64,000 nt of DNA from Paramacrobiotus metropolitanus (Eukaryota; Tardigrada; Eutardigrada; Parachela; Macrobiotidae), in the NCBI RefSeq assembly GCF_019649055.1, contig NW_026570258.1, positions 806,001-870,000 on the forward strand, read 5' to 3'. The notes below the pieces were generated by a model that worked only from the letters and a program-made list of their open reading frames with translations, had not been told where the DNA came from and did no database searches. Positions within the stretch are counted from its first letter, which is position 1. Every line of letters starts with the position of its first letter. The position numbers were made by a program, and so were the translations under genes. Below, piece by piece: positions 5,081 through 52,096 of this stretch.

Positions 5081-5087
5081 CCGCGCT

Positions 5088-29639: not shown

Positions 29640-30343
29640 GTTCAGCTTTTACACGAGGTACTTGTCTTTTTGCTACATCATGTTAAAACAACGCACGGGA
29701 AACTGTAATGGGTACACATGCTAATTTATAATGCACATAAAATTAAAATAAAAATTTTAGGCGATAATATTCTGCCGACAGGCACGGCAGAACCTATCTA
29801 CGATAACCGGTTAATACACCAAGGATACACCAAAACATTCAAACCAGGAAGTAAAACCAATGATTTCACACAAGTAGTTTCTCTGTAGTAAACAGCAAAG
29901 TGCCGAAATAAAAATCAGATATATTACAAATATGCCAAACTGCAATCGAAGGAGCAGTAATTATTATCCTTCCAGAGGAGCAGTAATTATTATCATTCCA
30001 CTTTGGTAAAAAAATTAAAAACACTGTCATGGATTCATGACAGCGTTCGCAACTTCGCACTAAGGAAAGCAGGTTTATACGACAAAGAAAATCATCTGTC
30101 ATGTTATATTAATTACAAACAAAAGTCAGGTTCACAAGTCGATTAATTTGTGCACATAATTAAGTAGCACATAGCCGGTTATTTCTCCCATGGAATGGAT
30201 ATCACGAGGTATAGTACAGTATATCCGCTGTAGCTCCACACAACAAGTACAATGCTTTATTGTAATTTTTTTATAGATCGAGAACATCATTGTGTGTGCA
30301 GTCGCAGTTTTGTTGCAAATCCTGAAGCTCTTATGTGTCAAGA
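29640..30343. repeat. Upstream half of duplicated lectin-gene unit A (repeated at 39930 and 42290)
   Basis: The ~700 bp before gene A match the DNA before genes B (39930-40563) and C (42290-42840). Shared phrases include GCACGGGAAACT-like, ATTATGCACATAAA, GACAGGCACGG, CAAGTAGTTTCTG, GGATTCATGACAGCG, AGCAGGTTTATACGACA and TTGTGCACATAATTA. The duplicated unit therefore included promoter DNA. Within A, a ~30-bp segment (GGAGCAGTAATTATTATC) is itself tandemly doubled near 29950-29995. Confidence 0.85.
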
Positions 30344-33300
30344 ATGGCTCGTCTTGCAGTTACAATAGCTGGGATTGTTTGCATGCTTTCTGCCGGTTAC
30401 GATGTACGTCGGGGCTCCTGTTGTGCTCTGTAACTTCTCAATTAGCAAATATGAAGAAACTTCTCGCCTAACATTCGGAAATCGTATTTTAGTCGGCTGG
30501 CATTCAGAGCTCCAGCACGAATTCTCCGAAAACAAGCCCGGCATCCAGCGGAAGCGATGTGCAGCGTGTCACTATAAAGAACGGAGAGTCCTACACGATG
30601 CGATGTACTGATTTCAACTCCACACCAACCGCACCGGATTCCCGTCGACGCCGCGCGGCGGACGACCATGTACGTTACATTGTACAGTAGATAACAATAC
30701 ACATATCAGGTTTCAAACGGTACTAATGGTTATGGGCCTACACGGCTAATTTAGTGGAAAATCTGTAACGTAAAAGTTTTTTTTAGCGAAGAAGATGCCT
30801 CGATTAATATTTGTAAGTACAGTAATTGCTCCTGCTCCCGATCCTAAGGCTTAATTCTAAACGATCCCTAAAGGATCTACCGGTACTGCACTTTAGATCG
30901 GTAGTCGATCCGAAGAGGAGCGACTGTATATTGAAAAAATTTTGGTTGGAGAGTGGCGCTAAATGATTAGGCGATCGTGTTACGAGTACAGAGGGATACA
31001 AATTTCGAGCACCCAGCGGCTCGTTTGACGATTCACCGAAACTGGTCAGTCGAGTACTCAGGAGTCGATATCGATGAAAGAAGTATGCTATGGGAATCCG
31101 TTGCGGGTCGTATGTGGAGCAAACCGTACTTTTAACCGGATCGCATGTTGCGGATTTAGAGTTATCAGTTAGGCACGCAGTTTAAAATGCCATTTTTTTA
31201 ATTATTTCCGCTAAAACACTAATTTCGTAATTGCAAAAACAATTATTACGAAGTCTTAACAATAAACTACTAAGTACAAAATAACTAGAAAAAACCATGA
31301 ATCAAATTACTAACTTGAAAATTAAAATCACCTAGGTGATATAGATATCTGTAAAATTGAGAAAAAGTGAATTCAAGATGCAACTAATTAACAGAAAATA
31401 ATAAATAAAAGTTGTCATTTTGGACAACAGAACTACCGGGTTTTTTTAAACTCTTAATTTGGCCGCCGTTCCCGGTAGTCGGCTGTATTCGGCAGCGCGC
31501 GATTTCGCGATTCATCCAGGAGGTCATCGCTCTGGTGGCTGTGTCACGGCGCAAAGTCAGCGGTGCGGAGATCTAAAAACATAAAAAATGTAACTCAACC
31601 AATCAAAGATCCTCAGTAGGCAGATTTTGAATACGGCATGAAATCAGTGGATAGCTAAATACCTTTCATAACGCCAACACAACCTTTGCCAAATATCCGC
31701 TGGAATTCCGCCTCGGAAGCTCTGGATTTCACATTTTCCCGTTTATTTAATTTTAAATGTCTTGCGAACTCGCTTCTGCAAAAAAGCACTTTTAAAATAA
31801 TTAAAAGTTACGCCGCTTTTAAATCCTAAAATTTTGTTGAAAAACTTAAACAGAATTTGACAAAATAAACGTAATAAAAATAAACGTAATAAATATGTAT
31901 TACAGTATAAATTCTATAAAACTCCATATTGTCATTTTTAATAATTTGATTAAAAAAAGTTTGATACATCAAAATACTAAAAAAACTTTACGGTTAAATT
32001 TACTACATCACAGAGTTAACGGTGTACATCGTACAGTTTATTTATTGGACATTTTGGATAAAAATTCAAAAGCTTTAACTCCGTACGCACAGCGGGTGAA
32101 CATACCTTCACTCGTTCTGTTTCACTGTTCCCACGTGCACCTGCCACAGAATTGAACGCTGGCGAAATCGCCTGGTCAGGATCGTGGGGCAGAAGTGGAA
32201 GCACAGCGACAAACGAAGAAGAGTAGCAGTTCTGAAGTTGAGCAAAGCAGCCACAAACAGGACGTTTTCAGGACACGCTTCCTTTTCAATAGGCATGTTT
32301 ATTTTCTACTGTAACTTAATCCCGTAATAGTTTACGAAAAATGCGAAATCGCACGCAACTAGTGAGCAAAACATCCTTGGTGGAAAGAAAAAGGAAAATG
32401 GAGTCAGGTTTCAGTTTTTGAAACCAAAAAACTCCCGTGGACGTTGATTTAAAAAAAAACTGAAAGCCTGAATCTAAATGAATAAATTCAGACTGCAGAT
32501 TCCAAACAAGCGCAATACATCACAGCGAGCTCCATGCCGCCATCTTGTGTACGCATTTGGCGACGGCCATTGGACACACAGCGAAGGATACGCCTTGTCT
32601 TTATTAACATACTTCAAATGTACGTACGTTGTTAATGGGCAGTGGGCATTTAGCCTACCAGCCGAGGTATGCCGAGCACAAGTCGCACGACTTGCCAGCT
32701 CTCAAGACAACCGCCACTAGCTGCCTTTAGACCGGGGCTGCCATCAGCTGCAGCATACAAAGCTTAAAAATATAATACATTAACATTATGCTTTCTGTAA
32801 CTATGATAACAGCATTTTACAGCCCAATCACTCGTATAACGATAGTACTTAAATAATGAAGCGTCAACAAGCATTCATAGTGGTCTACAGATATACTATA
32901 CGATGCGTCCACGGTATCGTCATTTTCCCCTGTTATACCAGGGTGCTACGCCAAGTTCGGGCAGTTTTTCTAAAAAATTACTGTAGGTCACCCACCAACA
33001 AAATTATAGTTACTCAATTTTTGTGTTATCACCGTATGTCTTACGCATCTTTTTTACTACGAGACGTCGCACTGGGGGCGTGGTCTGAATTACAGGTGGA
33101 TTTAAACTAGAGCAGACCCGCATAAAAATTCGGCTCGACCCATGAATCGTGGTACACTTCCTCCCGTTTGAAATTTGTTTAATAATTCCGCTAATGCTAT
33201 TGTCCAAAATTGATAATTTTGGGCTGTTTGCCATTCAAAGTTCTTAAAGAATACGTCTAATATCGATCTATTTGAACAAAGGATTCGTGACCCTTGCAGT

Positions 33301-36030
33301 ATTACTACTGCCGTTGTGAAAATGAAGGACGGTGCCCTTTGTGGGTTCGCAGGACAACCACGAAATGTCGGATGCATTCGTCCCAGGTAGAATCTCGTTC
33401 GCTAAGCGTGAAACAATAAGCTTAGCGTTTTCTTTTTCACAAAAAGCCCACGACACCCCGTTTAAACACGTTTCAGCACCAACCAAAACTTTTTTTGGCC
33501 ACAGCTTTGGTGGCTTTTTCGGCCAATCGTCCGCCAGTTCCACCTTACCGCCTAGGTAATAACTATCGTGTTGGACGCAAAAATCCTCTACTTTAGTCTA
33601 CGCCCCATTCATGGAGAGCAATATCTCGAAGTTACCTAGGTCAGCGCGTTAGGCAACCGCATTTTTCCATAGACACCTTTTAACATACAGGTCTATGGGA
33701 GATGCACCTTGTTTCGAGGTCATCTCCAGCACCGATCCCGCCAATGTTATTTGTTTACCCAAATTACATACCTTTTGGGTCGCTCGACAGTTTATAAAAA
33801 AGTCTATGAAAAAAACTTTCTTGGGAAATATTTTAGAAGGGCAGGTATAACCGCTCTGAAAGTGTCTGCTACCTCATCCCCATATTAGCCGGTTGGCTGC
33901 TCGAGGTCACATTTAAAATTTCGAATTTTATCGTTTTTGATTTCCCAGTAAAAAGTTCTACTGGAAAAGTGCAAAACAAAAAATAAAACGGCGCGCACAA
34001 ATGTTTTCGAATTTAATTTATGCAAGTGCCCGAACTTGGCGTAGCACCCCTGTACGTACCGGTATTCTGAGCTATTGAACGGACAGGGTATTTACTATAT
34101 AGATATTTATGTACTGCGTGGCTACATTCAAATTGCTAAACTACTGATTACACCTACTTACAGTATTACTGTCGGCATTGCAGATGATCTACGGCATCAT
34201 CCTACAGGAAGCCAAGTATCACGGCAGCGGAAGCGGTCAATGCCGAGAATCATCCATCGTGAAAAACTTGCAGACGAGATTCTGTGTTGATGTTCGTCAC
34301 CAAGAATGCGAAGTGCACGCAGAGGATCCCGTTGAAGGATGCGGTAACCGGTCGCTGACAGTGGTCTATACTTGCGGATTGATACGTAAGTGAAATAATC
34401 GTTCTCAACGAGGACTGACAATATCCGAGCCTAAAATCTTCAAAATCTATGTGAGCACACTTAATTTCGCATAGAGGGGGTACTGATTATTTGCTCTGTA
34501 TTTTCATACTGGCTGATAATTATCAGGACTCGGGAGTACCGAGTATGTATACAGGTGCAACTGACGGTAGCAAATTTGCAGAAAACTTAAGGGGCGCATA
34601 TACGCATCCAGTAAACCTAAAAAAACATGAGTTGTGAGATGGCTCAAGTTGCTAGTCTTTTTCTGCAAGATGGTTGTTAGTATGACAGTGGATATTTTTT
34701 GCAGTTCCTTTGATTTCGAACTGATGCCTCGCGCGAAGCGCGAAGCCAACGATGCTTTTTGTCCAGGAAATACCAGAAATTCAATAAAATTAGGCTAATT
34801 ATTCAGAAATGTTTCGGGTTTGTCAAATTTGTTGAATAAATAAAACTAGCGAAGCATTTTATGTAGCAAACAGATTCTTTTGCCCTGTATTAAATTTTGG
34901 TGTTTGAACATGGCCATGGGCTGGCTGCATTGATGACCTTACGCGAACATTCGGGAACGGTATCCGTATTCGTATTGGACCGGGTTTACTGGTCTTTCAA
35001 AAAGAAGAAGGAAACTAGAAGAAAAAAAAAGAAGCAAACTAGAATAACATCGAGCCTGATCGTTGTGGTCCACCAACATTGCAAGTGCTAGTACTAAAAG
35101 CTGTAAAACTATCGACCAGTAGAGAGATACTGTATATGCGCCGATACGCACCACGTTATCGGTTAACATTTACAGGGAGGTCTGGCAGTTGACACTGGAC
35201 ACGTTTTAACGTATCCACACTTACGGCGCTGCATATTTAAAATGCACATTGCTTTTGTGGTACGTAGTAATAATGCTGTTTCGTAGGCTAAATCTAAAAG
35301 CGGAACGAGAAAAAAAGTAGGTTAGTGATTTCGGAAACTATTAATAAATATAGTTATAACAAAGATCTCTGTTGTTTCCGTTACGCAAATGGCATTCCCT
35401 CTTTAACTGTATCTGTAAATGGACAATTAGATATTGCTGAAACAACCACTGGAATGCCGCATGTCTAGCCGGAAAGCTAATTCTCTTGAACGACTACGAG
35501 ATCATCCCCGTGAAAATAGAAGCACACATTATTTGTCACAATCACAATGATACCGGTTTCTTGGTTTTCTTAGATGATCCACTGTTATTACTGTACAAGT
35601 GCTAAACAGCGCGTGTGATTTAAACAACAGGAGCACTACTGTGCATCGTGTAGGCTATGCAGCGTCAGAAGTGTAGTTACTATAAAACGTGCCCATTGGC
35701 ACAACTCCCACTGAAAGATAACGTGACACGCATTGGTTTAAAGCGTTTTCCTGTTCGTTTGCGCAAATTTTTGCTCTTTTAAAAAATAAAAAAAAAACAA
35801 CCTGAAGCCGATTAATTACACAGAAGGGGTGAGTATTGACAACTTTTAAGCACAAGTTCCAATCTAGGTGAGCACATGCACCTTTATGTGAGCACATTTT
35901 GTGCTATGTGAGCACAAGTTTTTAGGCCCTGCGAGGACAATAGTTAAGGAAGTCTCCATCTGGCATCTGATCTGCAGGAAGAAACAAAGGTAAACGTTGG
36001 ATGATCACGGACAACGTGTTGGATGATTGA
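30344..36030 (+). CDS. Secreted SUEL-like lectin-domain protein A (four exons, 163 aa)
   Basis: Exons 30344-30403, 30493-30669, 34184-34385 and 35978-36030; phases 0, 0 and 1. Exon 1 encodes a signal peptide (MARLAVTIAGIVCMLSAG). Exons 2-3 fit a SUEL (galactose/rhamnose-binding) lectin domain: VTIKNGESYTMRC as its first strand, then IILQEAKYHG, C(x)14C(x)6C, and LTVVYTC as the last strand. Differences from the family are six cysteines, no YGR triplet, no DPC motif, and an insert with a basic RRRRA stretch that could be cleaved by a furin-like protease. The tail is short and polar, ending NVLDD. Intron 2 is 3.5 kb and holds an inserted element. Binding to glycans is inferred only. Confidence 0.75.
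32939..34052. mobile_element. Inverted-repeat DNA element (1.1 kb) in intron 2 of gene A
   Basis: Left end CAGGGTGCTACGCCAAGTTC and right end with the complement of CAGGGGTGCTACGCCAAGTT; the ~25-bp terminal repeats differ by one base. Both sides are flanked by TAC (32936-32938 and 34053-34055), a 2-3-bp target duplication. No transposase is recognised inside. The minus-strand open frame 33268-33543 has no known domain. Confidence 0.7.
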
Positions 36031-36883
36031 TCTATTCTCTTGGTACTGGCATTGGCTGGAGTTCTGCTGATTCTGTTTATGATTTTCCAAGAAAAAGAGG
36101 CTCTTGCTTATATATATCGTCTGCTAATAAATTGCTGTTATTGATAGGCGGTAGTCATTACTGATGCATATACCCTCTAATTATGCGATTAACCTTTAAT
36201 TATGCGGATTTGTGGCCCTGCGTGTGCTCGTTAAAGTGAAGGATTCTGCTAACTTAATGCCGAGCCAGATATCCTCGTTTAATAACAAGGAATCAAAATC
36301 GTGGCCACCATCAAAATAACTGGCACACTTTGGCCCCACGGGCCGTTAGTACGCTACATAATACAAGTTTTCGAAATATGTACTGTTCCGGCTTACAATC
36401 AGTACACCAGGCTGAGGATGGCATTTCGGTGTCAACAGCAGTACTTCTACTTGCAATGCTTTAAAAATTTTATTCAAAATAATCCAATTTATTAAAAGCG
36501 TCAGAACATTTAAAAACAGATGGTTATTTATTATTATTGAACTTTATGGTGTTATTACTGAAAGCCTTGACCATTGTGCAAACAACAACCACCTCCGTAG
36601 AATATCATGCAGAGAAGAGCCGGTGATCTCCCTCACCAGATTTGTTCCCATTTGAAATTCCCTCCTTTAGTGCCAGAAAAGAACTAAATTTTTGAACGTT
36701 TCGACAAATTAAGCAGGTTTTGCTGAAATGCGAAGATGGCAACCCGCTCTCCGCTGTAACGATCAGGGAATATAGGGTGCCTAAACCGGTCTGCATCTGG
36801 GGCTGTCCAAGCTGACCACCATCACGCTTTGTATTTCGAGTGACGAAGAGGAAGTTAACCGAAATGGAGACGGTCCCCACTGC
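36031..36883. other. 3' flank of gene A and unassigned DNA
   Basis: Shares short blocks with the 3' flanks of genes B and C (for example CGGTAGTCATTACT-like followed by TAATTATGCGATTA), so the duplication extends past the coding ends. A minus-strand open frame at 36605-36880 has no recognised family. Confidence 0.4.
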
Positions 36884-37676
36884 GGCTAGGTATGTACCTA
36901 ATACTCATAACGGTCCTCATACTCATAATCCTACTCCTAATTCAAAAATCATACTCATATTGGCTCTCATAATCATAATCATACTTTCGTCCTACCGGTC
37001 ATCATACTTTTGTTCATAATTATAACTCATACCTCTGCCATTACTCATACTGCTCACTAGCGTGTCAAAATTAATATTACTAGTATAATATTCGATCAAA
37101 ACCACGATAGTCTACTCAATCGTCCACTATCGTCCACTTGTAAAAATTATTTCATCCGAAACTGAAGCAGAAAATTAAATCACTTTATCGGAAAATTACT
37201 ACACTACAAAATGAATTCAGTAAACTTAAACTGGATAATGAAAGCTAATTGATAAAAAACTGAGAATACGGACTGAGTACAAAACTTACCATTGTCCACT
37301 TTCGTCCATTTTTTAAACTGGTGTAAGTTGAAACGATACATCATACAAATATATGAAAACCATGTAACTGGGCTCACCACACAGATTCCAGCCTTCATGT
37401 TAGCGAAAGGTCGCGGTTAGCAACATCAAGCAGGAGAGGAAGCCGTAGAGTTACTGTTGCTTTATTAATAATTACGGTATTTATCAAGTAATATAATGCA
37501 TTTGCACTGGTATGAGTAGTGGCAAAGGTATGAGTTATGATTATGAATAAAAGTATGATGACCGGTAGGACAAAAGTATGATTATGATTATGAGAGCCGA
37601 TATGGATATGAAATCTGAATTAGGAGTAGGATTATGAGGATGAGGACCGTTATGAGTATTAGGTACATACCTAGCC
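36884..37676. mobile_element. Foldback MITE, copy 2 (793 bp) with 9-bp target duplication
   Basis: Terminal inverted repeats of ~170 bp start GGCTAGGTATGTACCTAAT and are built from CTCATAACGGTCCTCATA-like phrases, as in the copy at 13066. CCCCACTGC is present on both sides (36875-36883 and 37678-37686), indicating an insertion with a 9-bp duplication, in the size range of Mutator-like or related elements. No coding sequence. Confidence 0.85.
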
Positions 37677-38022
37677 CCCCCACTGCTCCTCCTTGTGACG
37701 CATGTACATGGATGTACTTGTACTCTGGTCAGCCTTATAAGGCAGAAAATCATATTCCTTAATACAGAAATGCTGTCTAAACTGTACTGCTTGTAAATGA
37801 TTTCTTGGTGAATTCTTGTGATTTGAGTGATTTGATTTATTGTCTCATGCAGCGGGACAGATGTCCCCTCTGGGCACTTGACACAATTATAGACACAATT
37901 TAACTCTTCAAAAGGTAGCCCAAAAATTATAGAAGTATCAGACAAAAACAAACCAAATGTAAAAAATAAAGACAATCAACTAATAATTTTACACAGAAAA
38001 TGCTGGAAACCACAATGTCGAA

Positions 38023-38760
38023 TCAGTTCTTCAGTAGCTTAGTATTACAAAAACGTTTAACAAAGTCCAGGTTGCTCCAGTTGACGGTATCCAGTGCACT
38101 CCTAAACATATTGACCGAGGCGTAACTTTCTTTGTCCAGGGGAATTTCATTCCATAATAGCGCTAAGCGACTTGAGAGAGAGTCCGGGGAGGAAGGCAGA
38201 GTGTTCCCGCACAATGTTGTTGGTGCCGCCATAATGGGGAAGGGATGTGTACATAGCCGCCTGGCTGAACGAGTATTACCTGAAACACAAGAAACAGCGG
38301 CAGCAGCTTGCTCATATGGTAAGAAAAACCGTTTTCCCAGCGGGATGCGGTTGAAAACAAGTTTGTACGTAAACACAAGGCTCCGTTTCAACCTGCGCAA
38401 TTCAAAGCAGTCCCAATTTAACTCCTTTAACCGTTCTCTGTAACTGCTGCTACCGGGATTAAGAGAGTCCAGAAAGCGCTCCAAACAACGTTCTAACTTA
38501 TCTCTGCAGGTTTTATTCGCTGGTGCTACATAAGGGCTGCAATAGTCAAACGATGTAAACACCAAAGATTTAAACACCAAAGATTCTTCACTTTTATTCT
38601 TGTTGAGTGGGTATAAATGAACAATATTATAGTTATTACGGTACTGGAAGGTCTTACTCTTAACCATACGGACATCGGGCTGTTCGATTTTGGCAGGACA
38701 AGTCCTCTAAAACAATTGCTGAAGCAAAGATTTTGCTGCAAAATCGCTAATTGACTCACT
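38023..38760 (-). pseudogene. LINE (non-LTR retrotransposon) 3'-terminal fragment
   Basis: A 214-codon minus-strand frame matches the region after the reverse-transcriptase core of jockey/CR1-like LINEs: FDYCSPYVAP, KLERCLERFL, YRERLKELNWDCFELRR and SLVFTYKLVFNRIPLG. The catalytic RT motifs and endonuclease are absent, so this is a 5'-truncated copy, as expected from incomplete target-primed reverse transcription. The reading frame is still open over its length, suggesting a fairly recent insertion. Confidence 0.8.
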
Positions 38761-38848
38761 GAGTGATCGAGCTACCACCATTATCCAGTGCTCAAAATCG
38801 CTGCGTGAATGAGTAACCGGGCTATTCGTTCCTTCTGGCCGTGGATCA

Positions 38849-38884
38849 CAAGAAACGCGGAGGCAAAGCCGCAGCTGATTCTTG
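38849..38884. repeat. Dispersed hairpin repeat, copy 1
   Basis: CAAGAA...TTCTTG stem enclosing GCGGAGGCAAAGCCGC, which is itself a small stem. Nearly the same 36-bp sequence occurs at 59104-59139, embedded in a slightly longer shared block (ACAAGAAACGCGGAGGCAAA). Confidence 0.7.
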
Positions 38885-38889
38885 TAGTT

Positions 38890-40430
38890 ATTATGGTCAT
38901 TGTTATACCTGTTATAGTCATATTATAGTTATTACTTATAATTATAGTTGTTGTGTACTTACTGTAACTGGTTTTTAATGTATCAGTTAGATTATAATTC
39001 TCTTTCTGTTTTTCTCGCTGACATAACATTACCATAAATTACTGTATTAGCGGCCGTAGCAGTATTTCGTGGTCACTTCCGTGATGAATGTTAAGAGTGG
39101 AGCATGCACAAGTACTCTACTATGAAGGATATCTGCCCGACGCTGCCGAGCAAGCGAAGCGGTTAAAGCTCCATAAGCGCTCAGGACCGTTGCAGAAACT
39201 GAAACGTTGGTGAAAAAGGCTAACGACTAGGACAGCACCGCATTCTTTCGTGCTAATGGAACGAGCGAACAGTTCAACGACAAACGACCTTTAAACACCA
39301 AACACTCTACAAACATCTGAAGTTTGAAATTCCGGGACATCAGCAAAGAAGTACAGTAATATAGCATACTTCAATAAACTTATTATAGTACTCGTACCGG
39401 AGCCGTACGTATAATCGTATATGTTCCGCTGTGGTCCGCTTTCATAGTTTTTGCTTGTCAAATTATTCCTTTGAGACTTTTTTGTGGCTAATTTCGTATT
39501 CAGGAATCAGTACTATCCGAAAGTGAATACGTGGATTTGCATAGGGCTGGTGGACTCGATGAAACTGGAAGTTTCCTATGGCATACGCGACTTTTGTACC
39601 GACTACGCCTATAGACGTTTGCCCATATTGCCCGGGAGTCCAGATAAGGGAGAGTAAGCTAAGGGGAGGCCATATAAGGCATTGGTCGAAGTATACATAT
39701 ACACACTAATACACATGTATGTACATATATGTATGTACCTCGTATATTTATATATATAAAATTTACGTATGTAATTCAGAAAAACTGACGCGAAAATTCG
39801 GATTATCGTATCTATCTCTTGGTACGAGTGAATGGAATGATGTCATGATGACCTCGCACAGCGAGTGTTAGTGCATTTCCTGTCACAGCTTGACAGTTGT
39901 GTTGTGCAGTAATTTAATTCTTTTGACAGCTTGACATTTCTTTTTGCTACACAACTTTGAAAAAACACACGGGAAACTAAAAGCGGTTACAGGCACATGC
40001 TCATTTATTATGCACATAAATATATTAAATTTAAGCGACATTATTCTGAAGGTAGGCACGGCAGAAGCCTACTTTCGACCGGCGGTAAACCCCAAGAAAT
40101 TTTGTTCTGCTAAAACCGTTCTAAACGGGAAGTTTAACAATGATTTTGCACAAGTAGTTTCTGTTCGTTGATCAGCAGAGTGACAAAACAGCAAGCATGC
40201 CAAACGGCAGGTAAGATTGTTCAGAAAGAGGAGCATTAATTATTGTCATTCCGTTTGGTGAAAAAATTTGCAAAACAGCCGGGGATTCATGACAGCGTCC
40301 GTACTAAAGAAAGCAGGTTTATACGACACAGAAAATCATCTATCATATTTAACTGCAGAAGGCCAGTAATTTGTGCACATAATTACCGTCGTCCATTGTT
40401 TAATTCTCCCACGGAATTGCCATTTTGGGG
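38890..40430. other. Intergenic, possible short exons, upstream unit of gene B
   Basis: Two plus-strand coding-like stretches were noted, ~39100-39220 (YYEGYLPDAAEQAKRLK) and ~39495-39655 (VDSMKLEVSYGIRDFCTDY), without a family or a coherent splice model. From ~39930 the DNA is the duplicated upstream unit of gene B. Confidence 0.3.
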
Positions 40431-40438
40431 TATATAAG
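40431..40438 (+). promoter_or_regulatory. TATA box of lectin-like gene B
   Basis: TATATAAG 126 bp before the ATG at 40564. The aligned position before gene A reads GGTATAGTA and before gene C TATATAG (42720-42726). Confidence 0.5.
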
Positions 40439-40563
40439 TTCTAGCACGACGCCATAAGTACTGGTAATTGTAATTTGTATTGATCAGGAATATCGTTGTG
40501 CGTTTTGTGTTGTGCAGCCACTGCTTACGCTAGTTGCAAGAGTGATGCTTGAAGTTGTCAAGA

Positions 40564-41404
40564 ATGGCTAGTCCTGCTGTTCTAATAAATGTGATTTTAT
40601 GTACGCTCTTTGCCGGTTATGATGCAAGTACTTACTAGTCCTACAGCTTGCGTACCGCTAATACGGATACTTCTTTAATCAACTCTACCAAGACACTGCC
40701 AGCGCTGACCTGTTGTCTAACATTCTGTATTTGTATTTCAGTCGGCCAACATTCCGGACTCCAGTACTGACCATCCGAAAACAGGGCCCGCGTCCAGTGG
40801 AAGCGATGTGCAGCGTGTCACCATAAAGAACGGAGAGTCCTATACGATGCGATGTATTGACCCCAACCCCGTACCCCCGGCCGCATCGGATTTCCGCCGA
40901 AGCCGTACGGCAGATGACGATGTACGTACTTAAATTACAGTATACGACACATGGCACCGGCATTTTCTCTTAATAATTATATTCTGCGATTATAAGCGTG
41001 CCTCGGTTAATTAATATGAACGTGGTTAAGCAACGTCAATTGCATTTACACGATTACTAATTAGTGTTGGCATTGCAGATGATCTACGGCATCATCCTAC
41101 AGGAAGCCAAGTATCACGGCAGCGGAAGCGGTGCATGCCGAGAATCATCCATTGTGAAAAACTTGAAAACAAAATTCTGTGTTGCTGTTCGTCAGCAAGA
41201 ATGCAAACTGGACGCAAAAGATCCCGTTGAAGGGTGCGGCAATCGCCCGCTGACACTGGTCTTCACTTGCAGAATGACGCGTAATACAACACTTCTTTAT
41301 CGTTTTTAACGAGTACAGTTAAGGCATTTCCCCGCTGTCATTTGTTTGCAGGAAGAATTCAAGGCAAGCGTGGCATGATCGTGAACAACATGCTGGATGA
41401 TTAA
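40564..41404 (+). CDS. Secreted SUEL-like lectin-domain protein B (four exons, 164 aa)
   Basis: Exons 40564-40623, 40742-40921, 41079-41280 and 41352-41404, with the same phases and layout as gene A and short introns throughout. This is probably the ancestral gene size before elements entered A and C. The signal peptide starts MASPAVLINVILCTLFAG. The lectin-like region holds VTIKNGESYTMRC, EAKYHGSGSGACRESSI, EGCGNRPLTLVFTC and the tail MIVNNMLDD. The basic site reads RRSRT, weaker than RRRRA in A and C. Intron 1 begins GCAAGT, a standard GC-AG donor in place of GT. Over exon 3, B shares most residues with A and C, so duplication is recent. Confidence 0.78.
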
Positions 41405-42719
41405 CTTTTCTTTTAATTATAATGGTATCGGCTGAAGTAGCCCCGATTAGGTTTGCGGCTTATCAAAAAAAGGCTCTTGCGTACTGTATTATTTTTTACC
41501 GGTAGGTATTACTCGTGCAGACACGCCTCTGATTATGTGATTATTCTTGGGTCACTGATGAGCCTCCGTGTTCTCGGTAAAGTAAACGATTATGCTACCT
41601 AAATTCGGAGTCAGATCTCCTCGTACATAATACAGTAGCTTTTCAATAAAGAACCCAGTCGTGGTCACCATCGAAATACAGTACAGTTATTGACATGGTA
41701 TGGGTCAACAGTCAGCTTCTTACGCTACATAATTAAAGTTTCAGAAATCAGTACCGGCTTACAGTCAGTACATCAGGCTGAGCATATCAGTTCCTTGTGA
41801 GTACAAGCAATTTCACTGCTTTATAAAAATATAATAATTACAAGGGTCAATAAGGGATCGCTAAAAATAAATGTCAAATTTAAGCTTGTATCGCAGTGAC
41901 GCACCGTGTATATACCAAACTTGCGTTACCGTACGAATATATCATTAACCAGTATACAGGATATATTCTACCAACTGAAGTAAGTATGCAAGGTAAGTTT
42001 AATCCAAAAAGCAATATCATGCTAGAAAACTAATTATTGTTCTGATGTTCGAAATAGAAAAATAATATTTCGTACATACGTAGTTACATACCTACAAAGT
42101 CATTTCCTCAATCGTGTACAATTATTAATTGCACTTCAGAAAAAGCTCGTGTGAGGTTAGGAGTTAATTATAGATATGAAGTTCGTGGTAAATGGACTGA
42201 TGCTATGATGAGAACTCGTAAAGCGCATTCGTTAGTGCTTTTCTTTTCCAGTGACAGCTTTACAGTTATGTTGTACAGCAGTTTATTTCTTTAGTCAGGT
42301 TGGCATTTCCTTTTCTTTATCACGTTGAAGAAAGTATCCGTACACGGGAAACTGAAAGCGGGGTACGCATGCTATTTATTTTGCACAAATAGATATTTTC
42401 ATTAATTCAGACGATATTATTTTGTCGACAGGCACGGGTAGAAACCCATTTTCGATCACCGGCAAACGCCAAGAAACTTTGATTTGTTCTGCTAAGACCG
42501 TTCGAACCAGGAAGTAAGACCAATGATTTTGCACAAGTAGCTTCTGTATGTATATTAAACAGTATAGTGCCAAAATAAAAATCGTACAGGTACACTGCAG
42601 ACAAGCCGAACGGCAAACAACAGCTCTCATAAAAAGATCATATACCAAATTTTATTCGGCACGAAACCAGTTATTTGTGCACATAATTAGTCGGTTGTTT
42701 TCCCCCAGAGAACGTTTTG

Positions 42720-42726
42720 TATATAG
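42720..42726 (+). promoter_or_regulatory. TATA-like box of lectin-like gene C
   Basis: TATATAG 115 bp before the ATG at 42841, at the aligned position of the gene B TATA box. Confidence 0.4.
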
Positions 42727-42840
42727 ATCCTTGCACCATGCCGTAAGTAATTGTGATCGTAACTGACCAAGAACAGATTGTGCGCTTAAGCTTGTCCAGC
42801 CACTGTTTAATAGCAACCCTCAAGCTTCAAATTGTCAAGA

Positions 42841-45093
42841 ATGGCGCGCCTTGTTGTTATAACTGAGATTGTTTGCATATTCTTTGCGAGCCATGGTGTA
42901 AGTCCTGCAGTTTGTGTAGCTTTGTTTGTGTTGGCAGGATTACCAAGATACTGTCAGTGTGAGCCTAATGTCTTTAATAAAAACATTGTGCATTCGTATT
43001 TTAGGCGGCTGGCATTTTGGGCTCCAGTACTAGCTCTCCAAACACAAGTAAGGCATCCAGTGGAGGTGATGTGCAGCGTGTCACCATAAAGAGCGGAGAG
43101 TCTTACAGGATGCGGTGTATTGACGCAAATTCTGCACCTCCAGCTGCATCCGATGTTCGTCGACGCCGCGCAACGGATGATGTACGTAGTACTATGTACC
43201 CTGATCCAGTTGCGACCGATTAAAACAAATTTAAGATAATACATCAGTCTGTATTGACTGTACATAACTACAGTTCCAACCAAAAATTTTTAGGGTAATA
43301 ATTTAAGCATTGTCGAGCATCCATATTGCTTCATAGTTTATACATATACGACGCACGGCACCGGCAACTGCTCCTGATATGCTGTATTTCGAGCTTAAGA
43401 ATGGACCAGTTTATATAATGGGAACCGTTATAGGCACCCCCTAAAACCCCCGTTTATTATAGGCACCCCTTTTCACACCCCGTTTATTATAGGCACCCTT
43501 TTTAAATTAATGATATATGTAACATATTCAGTATTCTCAGATAGTAATGCAGTTTTATTCGGATAATAGTACAATAACTTTATCGGGCGTCGAGTTAAGT
43601 ACATCAAGCTTTCCAGCCTATAATAGGATGATTAGGCAAATCAGCCAGCCTAGAGCGAATCAGTTATGCGTCTTCTACTGTGACCAGAAGGTCATCTTTC
43701 GCGGTAGTTAGCTCCTTCATTGGCTTCCTTCCAATCCCTTGAGGACACCGTGTGATTTTCTCAGCCTGTAACACTTCTGCCAACCATTCCCTTTGAGCTG
43801 AGGCTTTTATGAATACAAGTGTTTGCGGGCGATGCTCCAGAGATCAGTTCAGCAGTGTAGGAACACACCATAGGGCCGCACTGATTGGACCCCATTAACT
43901 GAAGCTGGACAATTGGAAACTACGGTGACCGGATTCTGTTCGCCATCGTACAGCATGGACAGCTGCAGTTGGACGTGCTGCGACAACGTAGAATTCATGC
44001 TGTTATATAAGCGAACTGTATTCTCGGATGGCCTTTTGTTGCGACAGTACAAAATGGTTCAAGCCATACTTCTACAGCGCCAAAGCCCTTCTTTTCGTAT
44101 TCTCTGTGGCGCACGCATTCGTAGAAAATCTTTCTGTACGTAAGGGACGGCTCCAGAGCTTCTCCGGTCTTGAACTTTTAGGACCGTCGTATTGTGAATG
44201 TTTGGAAAGTCGCTTCCTGGTATGTCTTAAAGTCTTTCTCGAATTCTTCAAAAGAAGGGTATTCGTCCTTCAGGTCAGCGACATTTTCGAGGGATGGGAA
44301 TACCGAATCTGTGATCATGGCTTCCGATGGCCCCGGCGCCGGAGGGCTGTTTGAACCCGCCATGATATGATATTTGCAAATTGCCGGTATTGGGAACAAA
44401 GTTATTGATACATTTATGTAATATATGAATGTATATTAACCCTGTTATATGGACCTTTTGTCCATAGGAAGCTTTTACGGTCATAGTAACAATATAAAAC
44501 AATAATAACAATTTTTTGGAAAATGTAAGTAATATTCCGTTCACATAATTATTTGCCATATATTAATTCAAAATGGGTGCCTATAATAAACGGGGTGCGA
44601 AAAGGGGTGCCTATAATATACGGGGGTTTTAGGGGCTGCCTATAAGGGTACCCTATAAGGGTACCCCTATATAATACGGACATAAGGGTACCCTTATATA
44701 ATACGGACATGATTAAGCAACGCTTAGAGTTACACCATCTCTAATTAGTATTCCGTATACCGCCATTGCAGATGATCTACGGCATCATCCTACAGGAAGC
44801 CAAGTATCGCGGCAGCGGGAGCGATCGATGCCGGGAATCATCCATTGTGAAAAACTTGAAAACAAAATTCTGCACTGGTGTTCGCCAGCAAGAATGCAGA
44901 GTGGACGCAGAGGATCCCCTTGAAGGATGCGGTAATCGGCCTCTGACAGTGGTCTATACTTGCGGAATGATACGTAAGTAGCAATCACTCTCAACGAGGA
45001 CAATCAGGAAATTTTCCTTCTTGCTTTTTATCTACAGGCAGAATCCCAGGCCGCAAACGTGGCATGCTCGTGAACAACATGCTGGATGATTAA
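42841..45093 (+). CDS. Secreted SUEL-like lectin-domain protein C (four exons, 163 aa)
   Basis: Exons 42841-42897, 43005-43181, 44772-44973 and 45038-45093. The signal peptide starts MARLVVITEIVCIFFAS. The mature chain carries VTIKSGESYRMRC, a RRRRA basic site, EAKYRGSGSDRCRESSI, EGCGNRPLTVVYTC and the tail MLVNNMLDD. The six cysteines are conserved with A and B. Intron 2 is enlarged to 1.6 kb by an inverted-repeat element (43411-44700), while introns 1 and 3 stay short. The frame is intact. Function is inferred as extracellular glycan binding (defence, eggshell or cuticle are options); nothing in the sequence decides between these. Confidence 0.75.
43411..44700. mobile_element. Long-TIR element (Mutator-like?) in intron 2 of gene C
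   Basis: Ends of ~100 bp are inverted copies: left TTATAGGCACCCCCTAAAAC..., with repeats of CGTTTATTATAGGCACCCC; right GGGTGCCTATAATAAACGGG... and GGGGGTTTTAGGGGCTGCC. The right end has extra duplications of TATAAGGGTACCC. The minus strand inside carries a decayed gene fragment (44040-44365). Related end sequences survive at 27420-27545. Confidence 0.75.
44040..44365 (-). pseudogene. FAR1/ZSWIM-like DNA-binding fragment inside the long-TIR element
   Basis: The minus strand begins MAGSNSPPAPGPSEAM, then FPSLENVADL, YPSFEEFEKDFKTYQEATF and FTIRRS. After an in-frame stop it continues with TYRKIFYECVRHREYEKKG. An EF...L..Y...T...F...RS stretch followed by a Y..C..HGE-like segment is the pattern of the FAR1-type domain found in MULE transposases and ZSWIM proteins. 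Stops show it is broken; the catalytic part is missing. Confidence 0.45.
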
Positions 45094-45363
45094 TTTTTCT
45101 TTCATTACCGGTAGATAGTAATACTTCAAAGTACTGGAGTTGCGCAGATTTTGGTTGTAGAGTTTACCATTAGAAAGGTTCTTGCACATTGTTTGCTATA
45201 GGAATCAATTATTAGTGGTAGGCGGCAGTCATAACTCGTGCTTATACCCCTGTAATTATGTGATTATTCTCTATGGATTGGTGACCCTGCGGGTTCTCGA
45301 TGAAGTAAAGGATTTTGCTACCTAAATGCCAAATCTAGTCTCCTCATACTTACTGTACATGTA

Positions 45364-45599: not shown

Positions 45600-47150
45600 T
45601 GTTGGTTGAAATGCTTGCTTGCTTGCTTGTATGTAGTTTGTTTTCTGTGGAAAAATTATGATGACTATTGACTAATGATTAGTCAATAGTCATCGTCACT
45701 AATGTCTTTTGCGATTTATTTCGCTGTTATTGTAACAAAGCCTCGTCGTCTAGCGAACAGTGGTTTCCTGTGCGAAATCTCCTCAGTGTAAGAACTGTCC
45801 TTTACTCAACCACCCTGTCAGATGCGAAGCAATAATCACGATGCACTTTGCGGACGCTTAGCTTTCTCAATAAGTTCAACGCAGCAGTCAGCATGTCAAA
45901 ATCTCGTGTCATGGTGCGGCACTAGAAATTCACGCCTACACCCACCCAGTCCTGTGGCGTGGTGATGACGTCACAGCCCTCCTCTGCTGGCGCCTGCGCT
46001 TTATCTTGGTAGTAAACATAGTTTCTCTTCAATCACAATCACAGAGGCCCGTCCTCCTTCCCGCGCAGGGCGGTTTGCTTGCCATCCAACTGCAGCAAGT
46101 CACAGATATTGGCATCCACCCGCATGCCATTGCACGTGGGGATCAGTCCACAGAAGGCCGCACACTGATCCATCCCGAACCATAGATTCCAGAAACTGGC
46201 GAGGGTGTTGTTGCCCTGACTGGTCAGAGAGTGGCTGGTGCGGTAGCTGAAGTCGATGCCACGGACGTTCAGCTGTATAGACACCGTCGGCTCGTCCCGG
46301 AAGTCGTCGACGAGCAGTGGCTGGCAAGAAGCGCCATTGGCGGCCGTGGCGCAGTGGCCTGTCTGGTTGTACACAGCCACCAGACAGGTGGTCGGGTGGC
46401 AACCGGCGAAACAATCAGTCTGGTTGACGGTGGTATTGGACTATTGGTGAATGTCAGGCTAGGCACGCACTCCACGGTGAAACGATCGTAAACGCGGGTA
46501 ATTCCTATAAATAACAAAGAAGCAATGTGAAGAAATGAAGTATCATATTAATAATCTGCCTGAGCACATTACCGTACTTCAACCAATGTTCTGTTTCCCG
46601 GCTGACAGATGGAAATTTAATTCTGGAAAACCCCCGCATTTTTGCTGCGCATCGCAGTGACCACACCATACCGCTGTACATTCACGATTCGCTTGTGGCG
46701 CAAACCGCACAAGTATGGTCAACTACATAAACAATTATTCTGTGACCTACCGATATCCGCGCTGCTCCATGCCCCAGCAGACAGCAACACGCAAATAATA
46801 ATTAAGATTCTCGACATTTTCTTCAGAGCAAGCGCTATATTCGTATGGTTATGACACAGAGTATCTGTCGCATTACACAACGCTCTGTAGTGCCTTCTCG
46901 AATAATGGCAGGTGTTTGTTTTTCTTAAATTTCGTTTGTTAACAACTTAACATTGTGTAAACCTGATTTTACGATGTCCTCGGGCACTATTGTTACACCT
47001 TCTGAGCAACCAGCATTACAAGACAAATGCTCTTCATATGATAAGCCGGTTTGTTTGTGTGAAACCAGAGAAAAGTTACAGCCGCTCGATACTGTACCTT
47101 TTTGATTGCATTGCAATTGCAGGCATGCAGTGAAACAAGCCTGGATCCCT
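45600..47150. repeat. Segmental duplication, copy 1 (partner 55935-57430)
   Basis: About 1.5 kb in direct orientation, aligned from GTTGGTTGAAATGCTTG through the PAN-like gene to AACCTGATTTTACGA and beyond. Both exons, the intron and both flanks are shared with 55935-57430, so it is a genomic duplication with a 10.3-kb offset. Confidence 0.85.
45922..46817 (-). pseudogene. PAN-like secreted protein, broken copy
   Basis: Same layout as the intact gene at 56241-57142: exon 1 at 46817-46751 encodes a signal peptide (MSRILIIICVLLSAGAWS), and exon 2 starts at 46504 after TTATAG. Relative to the intact copy, ~8 extra nucleotides near 46438-46452 (a duplicated CCAATA phrase) shift the frame after VPSLTF. 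Near 46028-46045 about six extra nucleotides bring stop codons just after EDGPL. Between these the protein (for example GHCATAANGASC and EQCAVFC-like MDQCAAFCGL) is well preserved, so loss was recent. An unrecognised splice that removes the 8-nt insertion is possible but not seen. Confidence 0.75.
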
Positions 47151-50028
47151 ATACCGCCCTTCCTGATACATTCCATTCCGTACGTTCTAATAAGCTGAAA
47201 AAATAATTTCTAAAGCGTTTATTTAAAATATCGAAAAAAATAAAAACATTACATGGGGGCAGTATTAGTTAATGCTGCTGGTGCTGGTAGTGGTACTGCT
47301 ACTGTTAATAGTGGCAGCGATAATGTTATATACTGGTGGTGGTACTGGTTGTGGCAGCAATATCATGTCATGGTACTGGCACAGATGGTGGCAGCAGTTA
47401 TGATACTGACGCCGGAAGTATTGTCACCGGAAATCACTGGGGATTCGCATAATGGATGCTTAAACCGCACCTTAATCGGAAGTAAATTTTCTGATAACCA
47501 CTTTCAAAAATAAATATCCCCCCTTCACGAGCGGTTTTCTTGTAACTGTAATGAGAAGTACAGCTCGTCAACATTTCATAAGTTTTGCGCCGCATGCTTT
47601 GAATATTCAGCTGCTAACAGTGGTGGTATCGCGCACTGAGGATGTCAGTGCCACAGAAAAATATAGAAAAGCGAGTCAGATAACTTACTAGTGCTAGATC
47701 ATAATTTTTTTTCACGAAACCAAATCGGATGAATCATGGTGGATTCCTGCATTTCATGTTCCACTCCGTGACTACTATTTTTTAAACCATTGGGAAAATG
47801 GTCAGTTGTGACGCTAAAAATGCCGAGATAACGGCCGGTATAGTGAAGCCAGCGGAACGTAACGACGAAGGACGGGATGACGCTAGTATTGTATCTGTGT
47901 ATCCCATCTAATCATTCTAATGCAATACGGTACAGAAATAATTGGGCAGCAAGGTACAGTACACACAGTACCGACCGCAGCAACTGATATTGCCGATTAA
48001 CTACAAGTACTACTGCCGCTGCGTGCTGATTACAAAACTGATGGAATCGGATGCACATTTACATACGTAGCCGAACAAGTAAGCACTTCCGCTCATTGTC
48101 AGGCGTTGTATAAGCCACATCTTTTGTTTTCATTTTCTAGCTTACAATAATTTAGGTTAAACGTTGGCGCGGCACGATCACCTGGTATGTAAGCGTGATC
48201 ACCTAGTATGTAAGGTATGTGAGCCGTGAGCGTATACAGAGTACAGTGTCGAAGAAATTGATTTTTCCCCAAAACTGCATAAACTGATGACGAAATCGAA
48301 CATGAGAATTTCACAATAAATCTACGGTGCCCAGAATAGTAAATTTTTTCCCAAACAGCATTCACCGGTGAGATGGAATGTCAGGAGTCCATACTTGCTA
48401 GTTGCTACCGCCTAGAAGATTTCCGTAATTGTTTTGTTACTTGCATGAATACTTGCCAACTGCCTAAAGGTTACAGCCGTAATTTTTTCTGACTCGCGTA
48501 ATTAGCGTAATTAGCTTGGGCCTTGGAGTGTAACAGTAAATAGTAAATACCATAATTCTGCACCGTACAGACATTAGGTATATGTAATCAGTCGCGGACA
48601 ATTATGCAGTTCATGACTCACAACATTTCCATCGGACTCAAATGCAGTAGGAACGCCGGCGCACATCCACTTGGATCCTTCCGATTCACCAGGCATGTAT
48701 ATAATGGCACCGCAATTTTCTTTAGCCGTTCTGCCCACAATATCATCTCTTACCCGAATTGGAAGCAGTCTGGAATACAGAGAAATAATATGCCGATCAA
48801 ATAAAATGAATTCCCTTTTGAGATAGCATTAAACATAAGCGCTGACCAAAATGAAGAGGTCTGCACAGTCTTGGCCTGCACAGCTGCAGTCTTGGCCTGC
48901 ACAGCTACCGAACGGCCAATAAATCTAAAACTTTTCTGTACCCCTTTTCTCGCTATTTTCTTTGCTTTTTCCTTGCCAAAGTATGAGTTTTTTTACTTGA
49001 ACGCGGCGCTCTTAATTAGAGCTTGCCCATCGGGTAATGGAGATTCATTATGGAAGCATATCTTCTGCATCTTCCTTTTTTTCCTGCAATTTTTGGAGCA
49101 GGCTGCTGGATATACGACGCTTCGCTGTTGGAATAACGGTCGACCGTTGGATATCTGGCCCACCATGAAGCAGAAGCATCTGGCTGTTTTCTCTACTTTG
49201 GACGTTAACAACATCCGGTAAGCCAAGACTCCTGGATTTGGCATCATCCAGAAATTACACGCAGCATCGTTTTCCACCTTCTGCGTTTTGCACACGACGC
49301 GGTGCCTCATCCATGCTGCCGTGTGCCTCACATCGAGGAGGAGAGGCCTCTCATTCCATCAAAGACTGTCCAATTGCCATTCGCCATCGGCATTTGGAGT
49401 GGGCGGAGTTGTCCAATCAGCTTTTGCTACTTCATTCTTTTTTAGGCCCCTTTGTGATGTGCAGGTCGGCTTGCCCTTTTTGCGGCGCCAAAATGTTACC
49501 TTGTTGTCAGTTACGTAGCACTTTGTTTGATTGTTTTCGTGAAATTGTTGAACTACATGTATTGAAGATCTTGAATTGTACGGTGTACCAACCACAGGAC
49601 AATAAAGGCTGAGACACAGACGGTTAATAAGACGGGGACTGAAATGAATAGGTTAAGATTGAATAGGATTTATGGCCAGACAGGAAAGCCTTTGTCCATA
49701 CATCTGTCTCAGTCTTTTTCAGGCTGGTTTAGCTATCCAGTCGTTGAGTGCGGGCGACTTTGGCTTTGCTACTGACAAAATAATTAATATACAAATGTAT
49801 TGTTGAAACGGGAACCGAGACGTCATTAAACGTTGGATGGGGCTTATCTGCTCAGCTTTCGGAGAATACTCGGCGCCGTTATTAAGACTGCCTACAAGTA
49901 TTATCCAAATATTCACAGAAACTGGACTACGGATGACGCTGTATTATGAAGACATCTTTTCAGGCTGTACCTCGTTTTTCTTGGACTGCATTCAGACCAG
50001 GCATTTGACACTTGACAGTATGGTAGTA
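47151..50028. other. Intergenic, no supported gene
   Basis: 47260-47400 is a low-complexity GGT/ACT-rich stretch. 48990-49600 has longer open frames on both strands. One minus-strand piece (TDNKVTFWRRKKGKPTC, 49470-49540) faintly resembles a FLYWCH zinc finger, but cysteine/histidine spacing is incomplete. No gene is called. Confidence 0.35.
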
Positions 50029-52094
50029 CTGTAGCGGCGGTTTCAAGTTAGACCACAGAGTTCGTTTACCGTAAAAATGCACACCTATATACCTGCGCTG
50101 CACGGGCAAAATTCACGATGTAAAACACGTTTAATATTTTCTGATTTCAGGAGGCAAATTATTACGTATTTCGCTAGGGACTTTCCTTTTAAATTTTATT
50201 TCGTAAATTACTTTGGTAAACCGTTTTCAAAATCACAGGAATCATCAGAAGCGAGAATACTATCACTAAAGAAGCTTATCTCCATTTCACAGTCACTTTG
50301 ATCACCGTTATCTTCCTCATCACCAGAGCTCTGAAAACCAACACCACTTTTTTCGCTTATATTTTCTTTATCATCAGAGCTCTGGAAGTCTTCATTGTCT
50401 TCACAGTCTTCTAACACCTGAGCTGCGTAAAACGAATTACGAACCACGTCGGCCGTGACATTCTGCCAGGCGCGCGAAATCATATTTAAAAAATCCTGGC
50501 GGCCTGGCTTTTTTAAGTAGCCAGACTTTGTCACTTCATTGTGTGACGCACGCCTTGCTTGGTACTCGCTCCGAAAAAAAGACTTCAAGGACTTGTTGAC
50601 GCTGACATCCAGGGGCTGATAGTCGCCAGTCCGACCAGCTGGGATGAAAATCTGCTCGACATTCCGATCGCGTAACAGGAGCTCCGATGACACTTTCTTA
50701 TGGACTGTTGCCTGGTCGCGCACAAGGACCTGTTTTTCCTTATCATCTGGAAAGGTATATTTAATCCAGTCGTTGTCCATTTGCTCGGTCCACCAGGTCG
50801 TATAAGAGCTCTCAAGAAAAATATTTCCGGGAATCTTCAGCTTTGACAGGATCCCATCAGAGAGTTCGCCGTTCTTCCCTCCCTTTAATACCACTACGGC
50901 AGGATACTTTCCTCCATCCGCACGAATTGTCAGAGATACAGTAATGCCTTCTTTCTCCCCAGGGGGATGCTTGACAGTCACCTGTAAAACCATCCATCGT
51001 CAACCCCAGTGCCAAACATAAAACACCCCCCTTCACCGTAGGGGCACCCCAAAAACCACAACAAACCAACAAGTTACTGTAAATCAGAGCTCTAAATTCG
51101 ATTACTTGAAATGATTTCAGTCGTCAATAAAGCTTTAAAATACTGCACAAAAACTCACTTCATTGACTCCAAACGGTGTAAGTGTCTTCGGTTTGGGAGA
51201 AACAAGGCGGATCATCGTCTGGTCGAAGTTGAAGACACGGTCATTCGGCGTACCATCCAAAACAACAGAATTGTGCAATCGCAAAAAGTAATCCAGTTCA
51301 TCGTCCTGTGTTTATTGAAATATATATTAGAGCTCTGACAACTTATAAAGACATTTATTTGTATTTACCAAATCTTGCTCTGTAAACACCGATTTTCGAG
51401 CATGACGTGTTGGTACGCGGTAGCGCAGGCACCGCTTCTTAAGAAACTCTGTCAACCATCCGCTTGATGCTTTGAAAGTCGGAGCTCCTTTCGCTCTTGC
51501 TAAATTCAGCGCTCTTTCTTTCAGCTCAAAGCGGGTCACAATTAGTCCCTTCTTTCGCTCAGCCATGACGAACTCGTACAAGTCGTCTTCGATGTCGCGA
51601 TACTTTGGCTGCCTTCTGTGCTTCTGCTTTCTGGGTGGCGCGTTACTTTTCAGCCTTCTGAAATGCAGTTCCTGGCTGACTTTCAATTTTAAAATATTAA
51701 CATTTTATTTAATCGAATGCTTACTTTTTCCAAAACATGAATGGTGCCCACGGAACTCCGATTTTCTTCGCATAGGCTCTGGCGCTGACATTAGACGCTG
51801 CATATCCCAACATAAAAGCCCGTATTTCTTCGTCCGTATACTTCTGCTGTCCACGGGCCATTTTGATCATCAGAGCTCTTACATTATACTAATAAATTTT
51901 TCAGGGCATAGAAAACTTTAATTAAACCTTGTCGTTACATGTTCAATCACAAAAATAAATTATTTTGGAAGTATTACAGTATTTCTGTAATTCACTCGTA
52001 AACACCGTGAGTTTTGCCCGTGCAGCGTAGGTATATACGTGTGCATTTTTACGGTAAACGAACTCTGTGGTCTAACTTGAAACCGCCGCTACAG
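50029..52094 (-). mobile_element. Complete Tigger/pogo-type DNA transposon (2066 bp)
   Basis: Terminal inverted repeats of ~90 bp start CTGTAGCGGCGGTTTCAAG and differ at only about three positions. TA dinucleotides flank both ends (50027-50028 and 52095-52096), the target duplication of the Tc1/mariner superfamily. The transposase gene inside is open. Six copies of the palindrome AGAGCTCT are spread through the element. The matching TIRs and intact gene point to a young, possibly active copy. Confidence 0.93.
50208..51861 (-). CDS. Tigger/pogo-type transposase (four exons, 454 aa)
   Basis: Exons on the minus strand 51861-51725, 51675-51369, 51305-51159 and 50981-50208; the first junction is phase 2, the others phase 0. 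Residues 1-46 form an N-terminal helix-turn-helix (YTDEEIRAFMLGYAAS...). Exon 2 holds the CENP-B-type HTH (DLYEFVMAERKKGLIVTRF, then ASSGWLTEFLKKR). The DDE_1 nuclease follows: first Asp in VFNFDQT (residue ~176), second in LVRDQATVH (~286), third in YQPLDVSVNKSLK (~322), giving DD35D spacing. The tail is acidic (EDNEDFQSSDDKEN). It cuts and inserts its own TIRs at TA. No stops or frameshifts are seen in the model. Domestication is unlikely because intact TIRs surround it. Confidence 0.88.
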
Positions 52095-52096
52095 TA

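Follow-up and report, generated by a model that had tools for sequence, protein, structure and literature searches.

The SUEL or rhamnose-binding lectin (RBL) domain (for the definition of the family, PMC10817417) has the disulfide topology C1-C3, C2-C8, C4-C7 and C5-C6, and in the sea urchin egg lectin, a Type V RBL, it occurs as a single domain in a disulfide-linked homodimer with hemagglutinating activity (PMC3269628). Loss of the C1-C3 pair has been described for a drillilectin of Clavus, and drillilectins with six cysteines per domain (for example Drillilectin_CvDg1) belong to a group whose 28 described members all have two or more domains and typically keep the YGR and DPC motifs (PMC7259678). 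Altered DPC motifs are known from other RBLs as well (PMC6891753). In latrophilin-1 (PF02140; PDB 2jx9) even the conservative substitutions E42D, E42Q and K120R leave sugar binding strongly reduced or absent, and protein ligands have been proposed for RBL domains whose sugar-binding residues are replaced, such as those of EVA-1 and PKD1-like 2 (PMC2430599). Here we describe three neighboring genes, A, B and C, in a 64,000-nucleotide stretch of Paramacrobiotus metropolitanus DNA (contig NW_026570258.1, positions 806,001 to 870,000; "the window", in whose own numbering all coordinates are given). The window is eukaryotic, with spliced genes and transposon pieces, and in our judgement probably animal. 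Our preferred explanation is that the trio arose by tandem duplication, is functional and encodes small secreted proteins, each with a single domain derived from the SUEL/RBL domain, blind to sugar and possibly processed; we give this explanation as a whole a probability of roughly 0.55.

Genes A (30344-36030), B (40564-41404) and C (42841-45093) all lie on the forward strand and are intact, with four exons each when splicing is read from the sequence. Exon 1 (A, 30344-30403; B, 40564-40623; C, 42841-42897) would encode a leader that to the eye resembles a signal peptide, and the three proteins are on this ground predicted to be secreted. Exon 2 follows at 30493-30669, 40742-40921 and 43005-43181, exon 3 at 34184-34385, 41079-41280 and 44772-44973, and exon 4 at 35978-36030, 41352-41404 and 45038-45093. 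The spliced open frames are 163, 164 and 163 amino acids long with intron phases of 0, 0 and 1 in each gene, and eight of the nine introns are bounded by GT/AG; the exception, intron 1 of gene B (40624-40741), is GC/AG, where A and C have GT. The proteins are pairwise 71–73% identical, contain no tryptophan, and have six mature cysteines apiece with a common spacing of x40-41, 13, 7, 10 and 10. The common exon layout, phases and cysteines claimed by a sequence-only reading of this DNA are thus confirmed. When a three-protein profile was run against all six-frame segments of the window of at least 15 amino acids (n = 2,685), 12 segments rose above the inclusion threshold, and their positions are those of the 12 exons; the next match has an E of 0.8, so that this search revealed no fourth copy in the window. 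Neither Rfam (gathering scores) nor ARAGORN gave a match.

A, B and C appear to be functional and are under purifying selection. Neutral simulations that introduced the observed number of nucleotide differences (2,000 runs per pair) predict 59–63 amino-acid differences per pair, compared with 44–46 observed, and differences as few as this arose in 1, 0 and 0 of the 2,000 simulations; stop codons, of which the simulations contain a mean of 2.6–2.9, are absent from the real genes. The ratio of nonsynonymous to synonymous divergence (dN/dS) over all codons is about 0.34–0.43. Change is uneven along the proteins, with a dN of 0.18–0.22 in exon 2 versus 0.10–0.11 in exon 3, and the fastest-evolving parts are the leader (0.28–0.34) and an insert in exon 2 (0.18–0.34), inside which a basic R-X-X-R is nevertheless kept. 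Silent divergence (dS) is also lower in exon 3 (0.23–0.28) than in exon 2 (0.49–0.71), which may reflect gene conversion or some other sequence constraint. At the start of exon 3, A and B agree in every base of 18 codons (34184-34237 and 41079-41132), of which C shares the first 12 (44772-44807), in contrast to the silent divergence of exon 2.

The three genes are tandem duplicates whose unit takes in both the 5' and the 3' flanks. With blastn, A 29665-30675 matches B 39939-40927 (66%, E 1e-79) and B 39828-40164 matches C 42188-42547 (73%, E 5e-50), which places the duplicated upstream flanks at 29665-30343 (A), 39828-40563 (B) and 42188-42840 (C). On the other side A 35942-36427 matches B 41317-41793, and B 41012-41629 matches C 44699-45352, so that the 3' flanks occupy 36031-36427, 41405-41793 and 45094-45352. 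The duplicated flanks are therefore roughly 650–740 nucleotides long upstream and 260–400 downstream; the sequence-only reading had the upstream part right, at about 700 bp, and had overlooked the downstream one. Over the last 700 nucleotides upstream, identity is 72% (A-B), 59% (A-C) and 72% (B-C), compared with 40–45% in five shuffles each; the global A-C alignment is misplaced near the ATG, where a separate three-way alignment lines up all three. This alignment contains a 17-mer, ATTTGTGCACATAATTA, identical in A (30146-30162), B (40369-40385) and C (42673-42689), some 150–200 nucleotides before the ATG. When as many as three mismatches are allowed, these remain its only three matches in the window, a number also reached in 3 of 100 shuffles. 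It is a possible regulatory site, but the flanks are homologous, and common descent could preserve it without function. Scanning one stretch for bacterial-type promoters has no meaning for an animal gene. Intron lengths differ greatly among the copies (89, 3,514 and 1,592 nucleotides in A; 118, 157 and 71 in B; 107, 1,590 and 64 in C), and insertions appear to have lengthened intron 2 of A and of C. An element within intron 2 of C (43420-44653) has 92-nucleotide terminal inverted repeats that are 92% complementary, with arms that contain 30-nucleotide repeats of the type TTATAGGCACCCC; in intron 2 of A, the stretch 32936-34054 is bounded by 31-nucleotide inverted repeats (90%).

Placed on the RBL domain by alignment, exon 2 would encode a linker, strands beta1 and beta2, and the first mature cysteine (C2), and would end, with the insert, in the beta2-beta3 turn. 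In exon 3, beta3 would be followed by a reduced loop 1 that contains C4 and by alpha2, which stops close to C5; next would come beta4 (with C6), a reduced loop 2 (with C7) and beta5 (with C8). The disulfides C2-C8, C4-C7 and C5-C6 would then be kept and C1-C3 lost as a unit, with loop 1 reduced to a few residues and C3 gone in step with C1. Two AlphaFold2 runs, one with C first and one with B first, produced models that cover exon 3 only, at a predicted local distance difference test score (pLDDT) of 50.0 and 50.6; a value of 50 is too low for fold searching, but the order of the secondary-structure elements still carries information. They place a strand at 3-10, a helix at 24-35 and strands at 40-47 and 58-66 (C first), and a strand at 2-11, a helix at 24-36 and strands at 42-46 and 57-66 (B first). 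In the latrophilin-1 RBL, beta3 spans 54-65, alpha2 spans 86-96 and ends at Cys96, beta4 spans 101-105 with Cys102, and beta5 spans 121-130 with Cys128 (PMC2430599). These low-confidence models thus suggest the strand-helix-strand-strand order of latrophilin beta3-alpha2-beta4-beta5, and model cysteines 34, 42 and 64 fall within one or two residues of the places of Cys96, Cys102 and Cys128. Structure prediction, proposed as a check of the lectin idea, thus covers exon 3 at low confidence; the order of elements fits, and a structure clearly unlike SUEL, which would have counted against the idea, did not emerge from models of this limited extent and confidence.

Alignment statistics point in the same direction for part of the trio. 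The joint A/B/C profile without the insert, aligned glocally to ten SUEL domains at a gap opening of 10, obtains a score that is reached by 1 of 1,000 full shuffles and 2 of 1,000 shuffles with cysteines fixed. At this setting the assigned pairing is obtained for C2, C4, C5, C6 and C8 but not for C7 or the stretch of beta3; a gap opening of 8 yields the favored register in full. When single sequences are used at a gap opening of 8, nine of the ten SUEL domains have a cysteine-fixed z above 1.5, compared with 2 of 18 decoys, and four of the ten lie above every decoy; the three latrophilins (z 1.6–2.2) do not. Of the single proteins without insert, A (z 5.5) and C (z 4.1) lie above all 75 window decoys (maximum 2.7), and with the insert kept they score 4.75 and 3.0. 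A hidden Markov model (HMM) of the ten domains, run with HMMER, gives the trio 1.3–8.3 bits; for the proteins without insert, of 2,000 full shuffles, 30 (A), 5 (B) and 44 (C) attain the same score, and of 2,000 cysteine-fixed ones, 70, 21 and 106. The alignment numbers overstate the case somewhat, because the SUEL family was suggested after looking at the sequence.

Other results weigh against a SUEL origin. The HMM search that had been named as a check finds no SUEL (PF02140) in Pfam for any of 11 overlapping sequences, even with E values as high as 10 admitted, although latrophilin-1 as a control reaches 85.5 bits (E 3e-24) against a cut-off of 31.4 bits. NCBIfam has no match for the A and C proteins, the two that were run; a profile search of PDB sequences gives none; and hhalign against SUEL yields no significant alignment (P 0.49 with the whole protein and 0.75 with the domain). 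When the SUEL HMM is run over the window the top segment is an unrelated one (9.7 bits), with exon 3 of A and C ranking second and sixth among 2,180 scored segments and exon 3 of B not among the 25 segments listed. Taken singly, protein B does not rise above the decoys, with a z of 1.5 when the insert is removed and 0.2 when it is kept. Among the controls, one reversed SUEL domain (z 2.55) outscores six of the ten real ones, including all three latrophilins, and most of the positive tests omitted the insert after it had been seen. Cysteine spacing departs from that of the ten SUEL domains (C5-C6, 7 versus 5; C6-C7 and C7-C8, 10 versus 12). Foldseek searches with the exon-3 models have no SUEL among the best 50 of 107 and the best 50 of 192 matches, a result of little weight at a pLDDT of 50. 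Finally, a latrophilin construct that lacked its N-terminal part and first cysteine failed to fold, and the nuclear magnetic resonance spectra of latrophilin were disturbed by K120R (PMC2430599); both features are changed in the trio. It is possible, if on balance unlikely, that the genes form a lineage-specific cysteine-rich secreted family with no relation to SUEL, and that the order of strands and helix and the cysteine spacing are alike by chance. The negative Pfam, NCBIfam and hhalign searches, the behavior of protein B, the spacings and the Foldseek matches listed all favor that explanation, whereas the shuffle and decoy tests of the joint profile, A and C speak for SUEL, as does the fit to latrophilin in where the helix and strands lie with respect to C5, C6 and C8. 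The similarity of the trio to SUEL is in our view plausible, at a twilight level, and not established; the earlier claim of a SUEL fit finds support in the joint profile, A, C and the predicted strand order, and none in Pfam, NCBIfam (A and C), hhalign or B alone.

The remaining database matches are weak. Those in Pfam are unrelated (THD_CWZF3-5-7 at E 0.13, HTH_70 at E 0.15–0.2), PHROGs gives three among the three proteins (best E 0.081), and a search of viral contigs with the exon-3 alignment gave 109 pattern matches and no confirmed relative. A search of the PubMed Central (PMC) literature for tardigrade rhamnose-binding lectins, SUEL or the galactose binding lectin domain, judged by title and abstract start, yielded nothing relevant. 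Protein C without its insert has weak PDB matches to CMRF35-like molecule 1 (E 0.39–0.4), and these, with the resemblance of GESYTMRC to a B strand and of YTC to an F strand, might suggest an immunoglobulin-like domain. We consider such a domain highly improbable: Pfam has no immunoglobulin match, the proteins lack tryptophan and have four extra cysteines, a helix is predicted in mid-domain (at low confidence), and beta-2-microglobulin has a z of only 1.1.

If the domain is a SUEL derivative, it is unlikely to bind sugar, a prediction that is well supported given the alignment. The YGR and DPC-KYL motifs are absent, with AKYHG or AKYRG and EGCGNR.L in their places; the earlier statement that the sugar-contact motifs are missing is therefore accurate for the motifs as such, although the tyrosine of YGR (Tyr63 of latrophilin under the alignment) is retained. 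The place of Glu42 is taken by Asn (A, B) or Ser (C) when counted ungapped from C2, or by Lys in the profile alignment, and never by Glu, and Lys120 is replaced by Arg. Binding of rhamnose or galactose is unlikely because Glu42 and Lys120, which are needed in latrophilin, are replaced; with these residues gone, the domain would most likely bind a protein or other non-rhamnose ligand outside the cell.

The insert of about 20 residues in the presumed beta2-beta3 turn contains R-X-X-R in all three copies. The sequence-only reading had a basic RRRR insert inside the domain, which is what A (30643-30654, a possible furin-type site) and C (43158-43169) have; B has RRSR (40895-40906), which is R-X-X-R only. 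Its location in the assigned turn suggests that this site would be exposed, and a furin-type convertase may cut after RRRR or RRSR to give two chains, which would stay joined because C2 lies before the cut and its partner C8 after it. Trimming may also occur at the basic C-terminal tail encoded by exon 4, which has GKR in A and B and GRKR in C ahead of the conserved end LDD, and amidation at G(R)KR is possible in principle. A role as a processed ligand or defense protein, as the sequence-only reading suggested, is a hypothesis. The same basic sites, each present in three of three copies, could instead mark a processed peptide hormone or growth factor, with a pro-region before R-X-X-R, an active factor of five cysteines after it (one free for dimerization), and an amidated C terminus at G-K-R or G-R-K-R. 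The greater variability of exon 2 relative to exon 3 is in keeping with that idea. However, it would leave an odd cysteine over unless this pairs with that of the N-terminal chain, and the sequence ahead of the insert, DVQRVTIK.GESY.MRC, shows good conservation among A, B and C, which a discarded pro-region would not require. Pfam shows no hormone or cystine-knot family, and single sequences of NGF (z -0.57) and IL-17A (z 0.61) both stay below 0.7; a better match to cystine-knot factors, which the sequence-only reading had said would count against it, was thus not found. We regard a hormone or growth factor as decidedly improbable.

A SUEL-derived, sugar-blind domain remains our preferred explanation, and it can be compared feature by feature with its described counterparts. 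The trio shares with the latrophilin-1 RBL the strand and helix order of the modeled part, six of eight cysteines in register under the alignment, and Tyr63. It differs in the replacement of Arg65 along with Glu42 and Lys120, in the absence of C1 and C3 (the eight-cysteine disulfide set is not present in full), in its shorter loops 1 and 2, in the R-X-X-R insert, and in being a free single domain rather than part of a receptor; there is also no HMM match, and latrophilin-1 as a single sequence aligns no better than the best decoy. Like the six-cysteine drillilectins of Clavus, the trio has six cysteines per domain and would have lost C1-C3, but it has one domain, has lost the YGR and DPC motifs, and has gained the R-X-X-R insert. 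It resembles EVA-1 and PKD1-like 2 in the replaced sugar-binding residues, whereas those are transmembrane proteins and the trio consists of small, secreted-looking proteins encoded in a tandem gene cluster. The sea urchin egg lectin is likewise a single domain; the trio differs from it in lacking the sugar motifs and in its suspected cleavage. The trio is not a new system, and its designation as the best candidate for an undescribed one was too strong, because six-cysteine SUEL domains without C1-C3 (PMC7259678) and sugar-dead SUEL domains (PMC2430599) have already been described. A more ambitious scheme, in which a lectin fold minus its sugar site and one disulfide has become a two-chain, convertase-processed extracellular ligand with an amidated tail, expanded in tandem as whole units with their upstream regions, is a tentative proposal that we consider improbable.

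The window holds a number of other elements. Between genes A and B lie a fold-back element (36884-37676) with arms of 167 nucleotides that are 93% complementary, and a reverse-strand open frame (38026-38706) that by eye is like the end of a reverse transcriptase of a long interspersed nuclear element and that finds nothing in Pfam at an E of 1 or less. A pogo/Tc5-like transposon at 50027-52096 has 95-nucleotide inverted repeats (96%), a DDE_1 domain (E 7.5e-19) and a Tc5-type DNA-binding domain (E 2e-11). Two reverse-strand, cysteine-containing open frames, at 46042-46440 and 56244-56861, are paralogs (75% identical over 137 columns) and make up a second duplicated family in the window; neither has a Pfam match above cut-off. 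Pieces of BTB-like (below cut-off), BACK and Kelch genes follow one another on the forward strand from 212 to 9993, with an F-box gene at 1880-2827 on the reverse strand, and six nearly identical tandem copies of 153 bp (99%) occupy 10710-11624. The window ends in a satellite (61903-64000) of units of about 80 bp with longer periods of 319 and 399, and G+C is 65% in the last 2 kb.

If the link to SUEL is wrong, the trio is one more lineage-specific cysteine-rich secreted family. If it is right, a lectin domain would have been kept as a scaffold after its recognition of sugar was lost and been made dependent on proteolysis, and this small gene family would offer three natural variants of it to compare. 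Protein binding, as proposed for the sugar-dead RBL domains of receptors, would then extend to free secreted factors.

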